A stretch of DNA of 22,419 bases from a virus (IMGVR_UViG_3300008266_000532:1-22419), one strand, 5' to 3'; shown: positions 10,738 through 16,580, counted from the stretch's first letter. The notes: a model not told the origin generated them from the sequence alone. Program-made: numbers and translations.

Positions 10738-11001
10738 TTAAAGTTTGATTTTAAATTTTTCGTTTAACCATTGCTCGAATGTAATTCCAACGTAACTACT
10801 ACTAAATGATTTGTGCATTTCATACTGAGCATCTTTCCAACATTCTCTTAACTGATCTACGGTGTAGATGTTCTTTAGTGCTTCCTGATAACCCTTAACA
10901 AATCCATCTCTTTGTAAGTCTGGAGAGTAAGGATAATTTTTCCCTTTGATTTCGATTTCAGTATCGGGATAAATTTTTTTTGATAATTCTTGTAGATCCA
11001 T
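10738..11001 (-). CDS. Small hypothetical early protein
   Basis: This is an 87-residue soluble protein. The middle (RDGFVKGYQEALKNIYTVDQ at ~31-50) is helical, with the GYxEA-type segment often seen in small Flavobacterium phage proteins. The C-terminus (ITFEQWLNEKFKIKL) is also helical. It shares one base with the upstream gene's stop (11001). No function is recognised. Confidence 0.7.
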   Translation of the reverse strand: MDLQELSKKIYPDTEIEIKGKNYPYSPDLQRDGFVKGYQEALKNIYTVDQLRECWKDAQYEMHKSFSSSYVGITFEQWLNEKFKIKL

Positions 11002-11460: not shown

Positions 11461-11669
11461 AATGCTTTTTCTTTTTTATAGATTTCTAATAGTTCTTTTA
11501 TAGTGTATTTATCTGAATAACTATATTCTAAATCAGCTTTCCACTCTGCAAATCCAATAGCAAAATCTTCTGCTATTTTTACCAACTGTTTTGAATCATC
11601 TGATATTGGAATAACATAATATTGATTCTTTGAGTCTTTGCACTTATCAAACTTTTCTTTTAGTGTCAT
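11457..11669 (-). CDS. 70-residue hypothetical early protein
   Basis: This soluble mixed-charge protein (MTLKEKFDKCKDSKNQYYVI at the start) has a predicted helical middle (VKIAEDFAIGFAEWKADLEY) and a C-terminal helix rich in Lys/Glu. It overlaps both neighbours by 4 nt. No domain is recognised. Confidence 0.7.
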   Translation of the reverse strand: MTLKEKFDKCKDSKNQYYVIPISDDSKQLVKIAEDFAIGFAEWKADLEYSYSDKYTIKELLEIYKKEKAL

Positions 11670-11974
11670 ATCGTTGGAGAGGTTAAGTCATAAAGCATTT
11701 GCTTAGTGATAGATTTAACTTCGTAAAAGTGGATGCCGTTGTAATCCATATTTACTTTAAAGGTTCTGTTTTGAAAATCTTTATAGAATAAAAGGGTAAA
11801 CTTTGTAGCGAAGTCCTCGATGTTATTCGACATCGAAAACGCTCCGACTTTATCGCCCATATTGTAGCGCATCGGCTTACCTATTTTAAGACCTAATTCC
11901 GCTATCTTATTAAATGATAGTAGTTGTCTTTGCCCATCGATAAGGACATTTAATTTTGTTTTTGAGTTTTTCAT
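11666..11974 (-). CDS. First gene of the - strand operon, hypothetical protein
   Basis: The 102-residue protein starts with MKNSKTKLNVLIDGQRQLLS and reads as mixed alpha/beta without membrane segments or known motifs. It is the promoter-proximal gene of the early/replication operon: a TAAATTTG box lies ~25 bp upstream on the same strand. It overlaps the next gene by 4 nt. First genes of phage early operons often act against the host, but that is only a positional inference. Confidence 0.7.
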   Translation of the reverse strand: MKNSKTKLNVLIDGQRQLLSFNKIAELGLKIGKPMRYNMGDKVGAFSMSNNIEDFATKFTLLFYKDFQNRTFKVNMDYNGIHFYEVKSITKQMLYDLTSPTI

Positions 11975-11998
11975 AATGTTAACTTTTAATTAGTTAGA

Positions 11999-12006
11999 CA
12001 AATTTA
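11999..12006 (-). promoter_or_regulatory. Putative promoter of the - strand operon
   Basis: On the - strand TAAATTTG (12006-11999) fits TAnnTTTG, 25-32 bp before the ATG at 11974. The -33 region is T-rich without a clear TTG. The AAGTAT dyad is absent here, unlike the other main promoters. Confidence 0.5.
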
Positions 12007-12104
12007 TAGGTATTGATTTGAATAAAAAAATTTATTTTACTTTTAAACGTTGTTTATATTGATTATAAATAACGGAATAGTATTTTTTATATCAAATTAA
12101 TATT

Positions 12105-12112
12105 TATATTTG
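12105..12112 (+). promoter_or_regulatory. Putative promoter of the IbrA/IbrB cassette
   Basis: TATATTTG fits TAnnTTTG and is followed by GCATAAATAAAAG. Transcription would start near 12119, leaving a ~90-nt leader before the ATG at 12210. It is divergent from the - strand promoter at 11999, with ~100 bp of very AT-rich DNA between. No AAGTAT dyad is found here. Confidence 0.55.
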
Positions 12113-12128
12113 CATAAATAAAAGACAA

Positions 12129-12190
12129 GTAAGGCGGTCTAAACATATTATAATTTCCCTGCCTTTGTTTGCCTTACAGCATTGGCGGGG
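12129..12190 (+). ncRNA. Structured 5' leader, H-type pseudoknot or attenuator candidate
   Basis: Two interleaved helices are possible. GTAAGGC (12129-12135) pairs with GCCTTAC (12171-12177). CCCTGCC (12157-12163) pairs with GGCGGGG (12184-12190), seven pairs including one G-U. Their order (S1, S2, S1', S2') is that of an H-type pseudoknot with inner loops of 21, 7 and 6 nt. The second helix is followed by ATTTTAATTTTT, so it could alternatively act as a terminator. It lies between the promoter at 12105 and the ATG at 12210. I do not recognise a known riboswitch class. Confidence 0.6.
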
Positions 12191-12209
12191 ATTTTAATTT
12201 TTACTAACT

Positions 12210-12596
12210 ATGGAAAGAATATATCATAGGTACGAGTATTGGGAGTGTTACAAAAATGGATTTTTTCGTAACGTTTCTGGAGATGAAAAAAAACTACTTA
12301 GTCAAAAAGTAATCGAACTTTTTAGCAATTCAGAATTAACCGAAAAGTTTATGAATAAAGTTATTGATGAGTGGCACTATTCGTGTGAACACAATCTAAC
12401 AAACATAGCTTTAAATCGTATAGCTTGGTTAGGTCAGTCAGCTTGTTGTTTATATGCAAAAATACCCTATTCTATAACAATGGAAAATTGGCGTTTTGTA
12501 GATGAACACAAAAGAAATATAGCTTGTGAGATAGCGGATAAAATAATTAAAAAATACGAAACTAAAAACAAACAACTATGCCTAAGCATTATTTAA
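12210..12596 (+). CDS. Small conserved-looking protein linked to PAPS-reductase-like genes in phages
   Basis: The 128-residue helical protein carries a distinctive block: HYSCEHNLTNIALNRIAWLG (~51-70) followed by QSACC. I recall similar blocks (SCxxNLTN..NR.AWLGQ.AC) in small phage proteins, but cannot name a family with certainty. The start motif EYWECYKNGFF resembles the same group. The Cys pair and conserved polar residues could bind a metal or nucleotide. Its 3' end overlaps the IbrA-like gene by 19 nt, so the two are probably made together. It is the first gene after the structured leader. Confidence 0.65.
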   Translation: MERIYHRYEYWECYKNGFFRNVSGDEKKLLSQKVIELFSNSELTEKFMNKVIDEWHYSCEHNLTNIALNRIAWLGQSACCLYAKIPYSITMENWRFVDEHKRNIACEIADKIIKKYETKNKQLCLSII

Positions 12597-13792
12597 ATCA
12601 AAACGTATACGATGCAAGTGTTGAAAGGATAAAATACACTTTTGATAATTTTGAGAAAATATACCTTTCATTTTCGGCGGGGAAAGATAGTACTGTTATG
12701 CTTCACTTGGTTATGGATGAAGCCGTTAAAAGAAACGTAAAAATAGGTTTGTTGATAGTTGACTTAGAGGGGCAATATAAATTAACTATAGACCATATGA
12801 CTGAATGTGTTGAAATGTATAAAGAACATTTAGAGTTTTACTGGGTTTGTTTGCCAATACATTTAAGAAATGCCGTTTCTGTATTTAAGCCATTTTGGAA
12901 GTGTTGGGATAAAGAAGTGCAAAAAGATTGGATAAGAGAAGTTCCAAAATTAGGTATAACAGACGAAAGTTATTTTCCTTTTTTTCGTGATGGTATGGAG
13001 TTTGAGGAGTTTGTGCCAGAGTTTGGGGAATGGTATTCGCAAGGTAAAACGTGCGCTTGTTTTGTAGGTATTAGAGCCGACGAAAGTTTAAACCGATTTA
13101 GGACTATTGCAAGCGATAAGAAAATAACATTTAATCAAAAGCAATGGACTACTAAAGTAACTGATAATGTTTTTAACGTTTATCCTATTTACGATTGGAA
13201 AACAGAGGACATTTGGACTTATCACGGTAAGAACAAAGATAAAAGACATAATCATTTATATGACTTAATGCAAAAGTCTGGTTTGTCTATTCACTTGCAA
13301 AGAATTTGCCAACCCTATGGAGACGACCAAAGACGTGGTTTATATCTATTTCATTTGATTGAGCCAGAAACGTGGGCAAAAGTAGTTGCAAGGGTAGAGG
13401 GTGCAAATAGCGGTGCTTTATACGTTCAAGATACTGGCAATATTAACGGCTATGGAAAAATAACAAAACCAATGCATCACACTTGGAAGTCATTTTCAGA
13501 GTTAATTTTAAACACTTTACCACAAGTAACGGCAGAACACTATAAAAATAAGATTTACACTTTTGTAAAGTGGTGGGAAGAAAGAGGTTATATTGACGGA
13601 TTACCAGATGAAGCACCGAGTATATTGGAAAGCGAAAGAGTTGCACCGAGTTGGAGAAGAATTTGTAAATCGCTATTAAGAAATGATTATTGGTGCAAAG
13701 GCTTGGGATTTACTCAACACAAAACCGATGCTTATAATAAATATTTAAAACTAAAAAAAGAACAAAGAGAACTAAACAACTTTAAACTATAA
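12578..13792 (+). CDS. ibrA-like: IbrA-like PAPS reductase family (DUF3440) protein
   Basis: The 404-residue protein has a PP-loop ATP-pyrophosphatase core. SFSAGKDSTVM (31-41) is the SGGKDS-type loop, with Ala in place of the first Gly pair. VDLEGQ (61-66), GIRADES (164-170) and YPIYDWKTEDIW (202-213) match the PAPS-reductase/IbrA pattern. The C-terminal ~190 residues (CQPYGDDQRRGL and YIDGLPDEAP) match what I know as DUF3440 of IbrA. PP-loop enzymes adenylate a carbonyl or oxyanion before replacing it, for example with sulfur or nitrogen. Its actual substrate is unknown. The gene is 4 nt upstream of the ParB-like gene, the classic ibrAB order. DndC is a relative, but the partner genes for phosphorothioation are missing here. 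Confidence 0.85.
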   Translation: MPKHYLNQNVYDASVERIKYTFDNFEKIYLSFSAGKDSTVMLHLVMDEAVKRNVKIGLLIVDLEGQYKLTIDHMTECVEMYKEHLEFYWVCLPIHLRNAVSVFKPFWKCWDKEVQKDWIREVPKLGITDESYFPFFRDGMEFEEFVPEFGEWYSQGKTCACFVGIRADESLNRFRTIASDKKITFNQKQWTTKVTDNVFNVYPIYDWKTEDIWTYHGKNKDKRHNHLYDLMQKSGLSIHLQRICQPYGDDQRRGLYLFHLIEPETWAKVVARVEGANSGALYVQDTGNINGYGKITKPMHHTWKSFSELILNTLPQVTAEHYKNKIYTFVKWWEERGYIDGLPDEAPSILESERVAPSWRRICKSLLRNDYWCKGLGFTQHKTDAYNKYLKLKKEQRELNNFKL

Positions 13793-13796
13793 AATT

Positions 13797-14447
13797 ATGA
13801 CAACTAAAATTATTGAATTAATTAAAGAATTACAGTCTTTAGACGTAGATAGCAGAGTAAGTGCATTAAACGAAATTAAAATAGCGATGCACGAAATAAG
13901 TCCTATGAAAACAGAGCCAGTCGATTGTGTGTTGTGGGTTAAAAATGATAGCGTACACGCAAACGATTACAACCCAAATAGCGTTGCGCCACCCGAAATG
14001 GAACTATTAAGGCTTTCAATTTCAGCAGATGGATATACTCAGCCGATTGTTTCTATGTTAGAAGATAACGGACAAACAAGAGAAGTAATCGACGGCTTTC
14101 ACAGAAATAGAGTTGGAAAAGAATGTGCAGAAATTCAAGCCAGAGTTCACGGATATTTGCCAGTTGTTACAATTAACGAGGACAGAACAAAGATTAACGA
14201 TAGAGTAGCTTCAACAATTAGGCATAATAGAGCCAGAGGAAAACACAAAATTGAAGCAATGAGCGATATTGTTATCGACCTTAAAAAACGTAATTGGAGC
14301 GATGAAAAAATATCTAAAAATTTAGGTATGGATAAAGACGAGGTTTTAAGGCTTTGTCAAATTGGTGGACTTGTTGAATTGTTTTCAGATAAAGAATTTA
14401 GCCAAGCGTGGGAAGCCGAAATGTACGACAATGGCAATGAAATATAG
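13797..14447 (+). CDS. ibrB-like: IbrB-like ParB/Srx-fold protein
   Basis: The 216-residue protein has a ParB-superfamily core: NDYNPN (56-61), LLRLSISADGYTQPIV (70-85) and EVIDGFHRNRVGKE (96-109), where DGFHR is the signature. The C-terminal part (~150-195, LKKRNWSDEKISKNLGMDKD, then EVLRL) is a helix-turn-helix, so it may bind DNA. ParB-fold enzymes use CTP or ATP as switch or substrate; IbrB-type members travel with IbrA. There is no ParA partner, so plasmid-type partitioning is unlikely. The 3' end overlaps the nuclease gene by 17 nt. Confidence 0.85.
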   Translation: MTTKIIELIKELQSLDVDSRVSALNEIKIAMHEISPMKTEPVDCVLWVKNDSVHANDYNPNSVAPPEMELLRLSISADGYTQPIVSMLEDNGQTREVIDGFHRNRVGKECAEIQARVHGYLPVVTINEDRTKINDRVASTIRHNRARGKHKIEAMSDIVIDLKKRNWSDEKISKNLGMDKDEVLRLCQIGGLVELFSDKEFSQAWEAEMYDNGNEI

Positions 14448-15168
14448 TTTAGATAAAAGTGTGGCTTTCGATAGTGTTAGCCACACTTATACTAAAAACG
14501 GCAAAAAACTTATTTCTGTTACTTCTTTTATATCGCAATTTAAAAACGAATTTGATAGCGATTACTGGTCTAATAAAATAGCTTTAAGGGATAATAAAAC
14601 ACAAAAAGAAGTTTTAGCAGAATGGAAAGCAAAAGCCAAAAAGTCTTGTGATATTGGAACGGCAATACATAAAATATTTGAGGACTATATCGATGGAAAT
14701 TTCAGCATAGTAAACGACGAAATAGAAGTTAATTTTTTAGAAATAGACGAAAGTTGTATTTTAGACTTCATTCCTAAATCAAAACAAGCGATTGAATTTA
14801 TAAAAGACTTTTTTATTAGTGGGAGATTAATTCCGCTTTATACTGAATATATTGTGCATAATGATATTTTAGCGGGGCAAGTGGATTTGATATGTAAAGA
14901 CAAAGAAAATAACTTTTACATTTTAGACTTTAAGACAAACGAAAAGATTGAAGTTAATTCGTATGGAAAGAATTTAAACGGAAAATTTAAAGATATTCCA
15001 GATAGTACCTTTTATCATTATTCTTTGCAATTAAGCATCTATAAACAAATGTTTGATAAAGATATTAAAGGATTGTTTTTAGTTCATATAAAGCCAGATA
15101 AATACGATTTTATAGAGTGTGTAGATATATTTAAAAACTTTAATATTGAATTTAATAAATTATTTTAA
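14431..15168 (+). CDS. PD-(D/E)XK nuclease, RecB/Cas4-like exonuclease family
   Basis: The 245-residue protein has the order typical of phage RecB-like nucleases: GTAIHKIFEDY (76-86, His80), TEYIV (Glu139), GQVDLICKD (Asp152), YILDFKTN (Asp166, Lys168) and YSLQLSIYK (Gln200 and Tyr204, the QxxxY motif). The true start is the ATG at 14431 or 14437, overlapping the end of the IbrB-like gene. An upstream frame back to 14362 is a shadow of that gene. It follows the IbrAB pair directly, so it may process DNA for the same pathway, or simply be a recombination exonuclease. Confidence 0.85.
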   Translation: MAMKYSLDKSVAFDSVSHTYTKNGKKLISVTSFISQFKNEFDSDYWSNKIALRDNKTQKEVLAEWKAKAKKSCDIGTAIHKIFEDYIDGNFSIVNDEIEVNFLEIDESCILDFIPKSKQAIEFIKDFFISGRLIPLYTEYIVHNDILAGQVDLICKDKENNFYILDFKTNEKIEVNSYGKNLNGKFKDIPDSTFYHYSLQLSIYKQMFDKDIKGLFLVHIKPDKYDFIECVDIFKNFNIEFNKLF

Positions 15169-15172
15169 TAAT

Positions 15173-15766
15173 ATGAAAAATTGGAAAGAGTTACAAGGGT
15201 ACAACGGAAAGTATTTTATTAGTGATTTAGGCAATGTAAAGACTAAACACAAAAACGGAACTGAAACAATAAGTAAAGGTAGTATTTCAAAAAGCACGGG
15301 GTATTACAGAAAAACGCTTTGTAACGACTTAAATAAAAAAGTTTATGAGATACATAAGTTAGTTGCTATTTGTTTCTTAAATCATACGCCAAACGGCTTA
15401 AAAATAGTTGTAGACCATATAGACAATAACAAACTAAATAATAAAGTTTGCAATTTGCAAACAATTAGCCACCGATTAAACACCCAAAAGAATAGAATTA
15501 ATAAAAATAAAATTTTAGGAATTAAACAGAATAACGGAAAGTTTGAAGCGAGTATAAAAATAAACGGTAAAAAAATATACTTAGGATTATTTAATACCGA
15601 TATTGAAGCGGGTGAAATTTATCAAAAAGCAAATAGCAATCTTAACTTTTATAATGGTAATCCAAAAGACTTTAGAAATTATCTAAAAGAAACTACTTTA
15701 ATATACCTTACTAAGCAAAACGAGATTAACCGTAAGGAGATAATGGATAAATCGCCTGATTTATAA
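15173..15766 (+). CDS. HNH homing endonuclease (NUMOD4-HNH-AP2)
   Basis: The 197-residue protein has three parts. Residues ~2-45 (WKELQGYNGKYFISDLGNVK) are a NUMOD4 domain. Residues ~60-105 (HKLVAICFLNH, VVDHIDNNKLNN, NLQTISHRLNT) are an HNH_3 nuclease with the His-Asp-His core. Residues ~112-155 (LGIKQNNGKFEASIKINGKK, then YLGLF) are an AP2 DNA-binding domain. The domain set is typical of free-standing phage homing endonucleases that spread by cutting DNA lacking the gene. It starts 4 nt after the PD-(D/E)XK stop and is the last gene before the late promoter, as expected for an insertion between genes. A longer start at 15146 overlaps the previous gene and is rejected. Confidence 0.9.
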   Translation: MKNWKELQGYNGKYFISDLGNVKTKHKNGTETISKGSISKSTGYYRKTLCNDLNKKVYEIHKLVAICFLNHTPNGLKIVVDHIDNNKLNNKVCNLQTISHRLNTQKNRINKNKILGIKQNNGKFEASIKINGKKIYLGLFNTDIEAGEIYQKANSNLNFYNGNPKDFRNYLKETTLIYLTKQNEINRKEIMDKSPDL

Positions 15767-16115: not shown

Positions 16116-16580
16116 ATGTTAGAGCAATTAGCAAAAATGGATAAGTACTGGCGTAAAATGGCTTTGCAAATTTGCGGGGACAGAATGACAGCCGACGACC
16201 TTGTACAGGATATGTATTTAAAGTTTGCTAATTACGATAAAGAATTAAATGAGTACTATGTTTTTTTCGCTTTGCGTTCTATTCACATAAACAACCTAAA
16301 GAAGCGTAAGATTGAAACGGTATCAAATGAGGTCGAAAACCTTTCTTTAAATGAAGAGGACTATTGCGAAGAGACAGATTTTTTAAAGGAACTTATATTA
16401 AAAGAGGTTAACGATTTGCCTTATTTTGAAAGAGAAACATTAAAAGTCACTCAGATAATAAGCCAAAGGGAATTGGCAAGGCAAACGGATATACCTTTTG
16501 AAACGATAAACAAGACGATTAAAAAGACAAAACTACAATTAAAAGAGATATGGCAAGACCAAAAAAAATCAAAGGCTTAG
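16116..16580 (+). CDS. Sigma-70 family-like protein
   Basis: The 154-residue protein has a sigma region 2-like segment (ALQICGDRMTADDLVQDMYL, ~16-35; DDLVQD is the core-binding signature) and a region 4-like HTH (LPYFERETLKV, then SQRELARQTDIPFETINKTI, ~101-137). Region 3 is missing, as in ECF sigma factors. It could direct host RNA polymerase to late promoters, or be a divergent HTH regulator. It is the second gene of the operon controlled by operator copy 4, immediately before the terminase genes. The last 31 nt overlap the next gene. Confidence 0.75.
   Translation: MLEQLAKMDKYWRKMALQICGDRMTADDLVQDMYLKFANYDKELNEYYVFFALRSIHINNLKKRKIETVSNEVENLSLNEEDYCEETDFLKELILKEVNDLPYFERETLKVTQIISQRELARQTDIPFETINKTIKKTKLQLKEIWQDQKKSKA

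Follow-up and report, generated by a model that had tools for sequence, protein, structure and literature searches.

A small all-helical protein, an IbrA-like PP-loop enzyme and an IbrB-like ParB-type protein (here designated S, A and B) are shown by gene neighborhoods and natural gene fusions to constitute one functional unit, which, as judged from sequence comparison, represents the IbrA-IbrB pair as it occurs in phages, extended by S as a third subunit. The DNA analyzed here (the window) is a 22,419-base virus record from IMG/VR (IMGVR_UViG_3300008266_000532). All four ORFs that the original prediction placed between 12210 and 15168 are present, all on the + strand and with boundaries close to those predicted. 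S, the proposed third subunit (12210-12596, + strand), is 128 amino acids long and belongs to no Pfam family; A (12578-13792, + strand) contains PAPS_reduct and DUF3440 domains, with the PP-loop motif SFSAGKDS at residues 31-38; B (13797-14447, + strand), of the ParB/Srx type, carries the motifs DGFHR and IRHNRARGKH, both invariant among its relatives; and N (14434-15168, + strand, with its ATG at 14434) encodes a PD-(D/E)XK exonuclease that is a linked neighbor, not a core member. Adjacent genes share 19 nt in the case of S and A and 14 nt in that of B and N, and A and B are separated by 4 nt; an HNH/NUMOD4 endonuclease ORF (15173-15766, + strand) starts 4 nt after N. Relative to a 95%-identical relative of the window (L005), dN/dS was low for S (0.05), A (0.03), B (0.04) and N (0.14), indicating that these four are real genes under purifying selection.

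Phages, plasmids and bacteria commonly carry IbrA-like genes. These are often labeled as sulfur-metabolism genes, and their chemistry is not established. What is new here is the small, previously undescribed protein S, tied to IbrA-IbrB by gene order and by natural fusion. The suggestion that the set may be an undescribed system is supported for S-A-B, in that none of the papers in the literature collection searched deals with this trio; its publications on IbrA/IbrB, on YbdN/YbdM, and on ParB together with PAPS reductase likewise gave no account of S or of the chemistry.

To define which genes belong together, relatives of all four proteins were taken from viral contigs, and those of A also from bacterial and archaeal genomes, and every ORF of the fetched loci was scanned with a profile of each protein. 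Each scan lists the best-scoring matches to queries drawn from the window's clade, so the proportions that follow apply to the window's relatives. The predicted pairing of A and B is supported and is obligate: the two were adjacent in 79 of 80 viral loci and in 79 of 80 bacterial loci. Viral loci found via A contained S in 78 of 80 cases and B in 79 of 80; none of the 75 new loci found via S lacked A; and the new loci found via B included S in 71 of 79 and A in 77 of 79. B was present in 79 of the 80 genome contigs with A (downstream of A in 76, with the one exception stopping at the contig end), and S in just four of the 80, which we take to be virus contigs. In most viral relatives S lies immediately upstream of A; the median overlap is 19 nt, and the spacing is 50 nt or less in 226 of 240 cases. 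The gene order across relatives is either S-A-B or B-S-A, and the position of S just before A is unchanged in both. Within a collection of cultured phages, 216 records have A and 218 have B, the tallies by organism being nearly equal, compared to only six records for S, which is thus not universal among phages. In each of the four cultured phages examined, S lies within a cluster with partner genes, and the cultured phages with intact sets include Amjad_SA, XCL1123, Mwe-JY13 and Gaia.

These counts define a core that consists of A-B everywhere and of S-A-B in many phages, with N as a local companion. Inclusion of the small protein in the set was therefore sound, given both the counts and the natural B-S fusions described below. 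The proposed four-gene cassette was one gene too large: when the neighborhoods of the four families were compared, S, A and B co-occurred, whereas N was absent from most S-A-B loci, and was rejected as a core member. It adjoins the trio only in about a dozen close relatives, with a distant homolog beside A in mycobacteriophage Gaia.

S has no Pfam match and only a partial match to a PHROG, one without an assigned function. The AlphaFold model of S is all-helical (pLDDT 94.6). Against the PDB, S gave no match by profile, and by fold nothing better than a Foldseek E value of 3.9 and a VIA-align Z score of 3.5; nothing was found for S in PADLOC or NCBIfam, and the one viral protein with a clearly matching fold is an unnamed 116-amino-acid phage protein. 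The context of S is more informative. B and S are fused into a single ORF in 22 loci, and the eight such fusions that were aligned in detail consist of a full B domain, a short linker and a full S domain, followed by A. Further, a separate gene immediately after S encodes A's C-terminal domain (profile positions 322-402) in about 12 loci (L101, L107, L110, L117-L120, L122, L133, L134, L139, L156 and L245), as well as in the cultured phages Gaia (L241:7829-8143) and XCL1123 (L335:6242-6598). Gene orders with this split-off C domain are S-C-A-B, A-EctC-B-S-C (XCL1123) and N-A-B...S-C (Gaia). S, its fusion to IbrB, and its coupling to the C-terminal domain of IbrA indicate that the IbrA-IbrB pair works as a complex; from gene fusion and gene order, we infer that S, A and B would form a complex together. 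S alone, the B-S fusion and the C-domain split give small testable constructs, including those from the intact sets of cultured phages.

In a tree of 159 A proteins, those accompanied by S fell into several separated clades, one of which groups with E. coli YbdN, although the placement of the long-branched Gaia and S-C-A-B members is unsure. The YbdN branch falls inside the large clade that holds the window's A. A search for residues that mark S-bearing A proteins yielded ten scattered positions and no cluster.

The A protein matches the Pfam families PAPS_reduct (5e-14) and DUF3440 (3e-34), both above the gathering score, as well as phrog_2302 (3e-84). The original prediction of a PP-loop enzyme of the PAPS-reductase/DUF3440 type holds with regard to the domains and the loop: residues S33, G35, K36, D37 and S38 are invariant across an alignment of 62 diverse members, and the loop motif was detected by pattern in 282 of 325 A sequences. 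A is not, however, a PAPS reductase, as the catalytic ECGxH motif of that enzyme is found in none of the 325 proteins, and A scores only 28 bits against the NCBIfam CysH equivalog, whose cut-off is 254.2; a role in sulfate reduction was rejected on these grounds. That A might be a cysH, an auxiliary gene of sulfate assimilation that would raise the sulfur metabolism of the host, is the common annotation for such genes in viromes and an idea invited by the PAPS_reduct match and by literature that links cysH with viral auxiliary metabolic genes; in view of the missing motif, the low score and the strict pairing with a ParB-like protein, we consider it hardly credible.

Structural comparison using the model of A (pLDDT 88) returned effectively tied matches to the PAPS domain of FAD synthase (Z 15.4), APS/PAPS reductases (Z 14-15) and CysD (Z 14.3), each spanning approximately residues 5-269 and thus not the helical C-terminal part. 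The SxGKDS loop and the Z scores of 14-15 to FAD synthase, CysD and CysH identify an N-type PP-loop/AANH fold (ATP pyrophosphatase/adenylyltransferase), of which TilS, NcsA and LarE are further relatives. This fold is compatible with adenylylation, reduction or sulfur transfer alike, and does not separate them. FAD synthase and CysD transfer AMP, and A has the intact PP-loop of these AMP-transferring members and lacks the reductase cysteine, from which we infer adenylyl transfer as its probable activity. A differs from FAD synthase, CysD and CysH in its additional helical C-terminal DUF3440 region, in being devoid of ECGxH, and in its association with a ParB-like partner and S. When A was examined for Fe-S or DndC-like cysteines, none of its cysteines proved invariant; C373 (94% conserved) and C244 (90%) are nearly so, and A may thus carry out sulfur or other chemistry instead.

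A minimal Dnd-like system of DNA phosphorothioation, with A as DndC and B as DndB, would account for the pairing itself, since DndC-DndB (and also BrxP) similarly combines a PP-loop enzyme with a ParB-superfamily protein, and A is partly similar to DndC (E 2e-7). We nevertheless judge such a system very improbable: the score of A against the NCBIfam DndC equivalog, 24.9 bits, is far under the cut-off of 290.4, and the DndD and DndE families were not recognizable among the commonest neighbor families of our scans.

The B protein matches phrog_2159, annotated as ParB-like (2e-68). Its match to Pfam ParB_N is weak (31 of 32 relatives match, the best at 2e-5, with the window's member under the cut-off), as are its profile matches to ParB (E 0.01), SbnI (E 0.78) and Noc. 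Together with the DGFHR-type motif, these matches tentatively relate B to the ParB/Srx superfamily (ParB, Noc, SbnI/SerK, sulfiredoxin and DpdB), from which it is distinguished by its partnership with A and by its fusions, to S in the 22 loci noted above and to an ectoine-synthase domain in Gaia. Proteins with the ParB fold bind CTP, ATP or GTP (PMC12704722), and DndB, which has been named ParB-like (PMC12704722, PMC12839542), and DpdB both partner DNA-modifying enzymes as members of the ParB superfamily (PMC12839542). Nucleotide binding by this fold and the DndB and DpdB precedents make DNA modification a reasonable possibility.

We tentatively propose, at somewhat less than an even chance, that S-A-B is an AMP-transferring complex that is brought to nucleic acid by B, bridged by S, and active early in the lytic cycle. 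A would use ATP in N-type PP-loop chemistry to place AMP onto an acceptor; B, as an NTP-binding protein of the ParB/Srx type with a C-terminal helical region, would direct this reaction to nucleic acid, and may itself act on the acceptor, like its Srx/SerK relatives; and S would bridge B and A. The set would modify phage nucleic acid, or something bound to nucleic acid, in a way that favors lytic growth. Early action is probable because, in the window, the set comes first in the rightward transcription unit of a divergent region and, in relatives, is located among replication and recombination genes; the viral neighbors of the cassette include DnaB, ERF, RecT, NinG, YqaJ and DnaN.

We consider it rather unlikely that S-A-B is the core of a hitherto undescribed lytic-phage machine for nucleic-acid modification, in which B would direct ATP-dependent adenylyl transfer by A to DNA, S would couple the two, and add-on enzymes would elaborate the mark. 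The add-on enzymes of some lineages would be an ectoine-synthase-like cyclase and acetyl-, glycosyl- and methyltransferases. In Microbacterium phage Dewdrop (L337:91-5146), A comes at the end of a run of genes annotated as three glycosyltransferases, one acetyltransferase and one methyltransferase, and B is gene 1 of the linear record; in phages 022DV001 and Salgado, A-B has a methyltransferase and another ParB as neighbors; and in phage Bernardo the A-B pair precedes the terminase. The glycosyl-, acetyl- and methyltransferase neighbors in some distant phages fit modification and speak for the AMP-transferring complex that we favor, but the Dewdrop glycosyltransferases could serve another pathway.

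The same fold relationships (TilS, NcsA, LarE and FAD synthase) could instead mean that S-A-B modifies another target, such as host tRNA, RNA polymerase, another protein or a small molecule, for host takeover. Small-molecule chemistry is suggested by the ectoine-synthase-like domain (E about 1e-33) that is fused to B in Gaia (L241:6308-7204) and is encoded by its own gene between A and B in XCL1123 (L335:5078-5470); as a general partner it was rejected, having been found in these two phages only. A further point in favor of another target, and one that counts against the complex that we favor, is that the pair is present in E. coli K-12 and on plasmids, from which no such DNA modification is known. 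A target of this kind is unlikely, given the ParB-type partner and the replication and recombination gene setting.

In E. coli, IbrA/IbrB and their K-12 paralogs YbdN/YbdM belong to the same two families, are adjacent, and have A ahead of B; K-12 has the pair as ybdN-ybdM. These pairs are without S, reside on chromosomes, plasmids and prophages, in contrast to the mostly integrase-free phages with S, and have been described as a regulator. A-B pairs without S are often found in prophages, as their genome neighbors, SNF2 helicases and phage integrases, indicate. A was found in 653 plasmid records (PLSDB), frequently on Klebsiella and Escherichia plasmids, and on the two plasmids examined (L333 and L334) the pair is near autotransporter, iroB or fimbrial genes. 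It is possible, if somewhat unlikely, that IbrA-IbrB (with S) is a transcription regulator, in which B clamps DNA like ParB or Noc, A and S tune it, and host or phage promoters are switched. According to the summary in PMC4541368, the pair is named a co-activator of prophage genes and has been tied to immunoglobulin binding in E. coli; ybdNM is itself repressed by CitR (PMC9068703), and the weak ParB and Noc matches of B, like the plasmid location beside autotransporter and iroB genes, are consistent with regulation. For a pure regulator, however, the invariant PP-loop active site of A would be superfluous, and no common operator was found upstream.

The region upstream of S in the window is a divergent intergenic region of 235 bp (11975-12209). 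It contains a TATATTTG box at 12105-12112, and a hairpin followed by a T-rich stretch at about 12155-12198 (z -2.3), immediately before the S start codon. The prediction that the cassette has its own promoter is plausible, as the intergenic region is divergent and holds TATATTTG, but the motif shows no enrichment in the window, with 46 sites versus 36 expected. The hairpin and T-rich stretch could function in attenuation or antitermination. An operator or leader conserved among relatives was rejected, as their sequences upstream of S do not align; a similar hairpin and T-rich stretch upstream of S in L012 was the sole resemblance among them. A scan of the window with Rfam yielded a single sub-threshold Trp_leader match, outside the cassette.

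Comparison with two sister phages, L341 (terminase 99% identical to that of the window) and L357, revealed how the set is placed in this phage line. Identity of 80-98% extends up to 11955 and resumes at 15685. In place of the window's intervening block (11956-15684), the sisters encode an HTH_3 repressor-like gene, a 94-amino-acid protein and a tyrosine integrase (PF00589, 2.5e-15), the corresponding segment being 5396-8018 in L341. The C-terminus of the window's HNH ORF, KETTLIYLTKQNEINRKEIMDKSPDL (26 residues), is identical to, and in frame with, that of the sisters' integrase, whose 3' end thus supplies the last 26 codons of the ORF; no such tail aligns in the other HNH relatives. The matching flanks and the shared terminal codons indicate that S-A-B-N-HNH was exchanged for the repressor-integrase module, which links the set to phage lifestyle. 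N and the HNH gene arrived in the same block, which displaced the lysogeny module of this line and left a remnant of the integrase. A was absent from all 19 sister contigs that extend 6 kb or more upstream of the terminase. More broadly, a tyrosine integrase scored above the cut-off in 0 of 45 S-bearing viral records versus 4 of 20 that have a related terminase (Fisher p about 0.007), where records of either group may be fragments. S-bearing phages are not strictly virulent: a serine recombinase is present in two of the 45 viral records, and an integrase in Gaia.

The block is accessory, being absent from those 19 contigs, and it might act against rival phages or host defense, with N as effector. 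N matches a PHROG exonuclease family (phrog_298, 6e-31) and, just under the gathering score, Pfam PDDEXK_1 (3e-4), and homologs more than 50% identical to it are next to S-A-B in 8 of 8 loci. Still, most S-A-B loci are without N, and PADLOC gave no match for S or N (A had weak partial matches to DndC and BrxP, and B a single weak partial match), so we regard this function as quite improbable.

Two further differences between the window and its sisters lie outside the exchanged block: segments 10747-10998 and 11462-11656 have no match in L341 or L357, within flanks that are 88-98% identical. To the right of the block, positions 16116-16577 encode a sigma-factor-like protein (Sigma70_r2, 0.006; phrog_1740, 1e-9), which adjoins the terminase in most sister phages.
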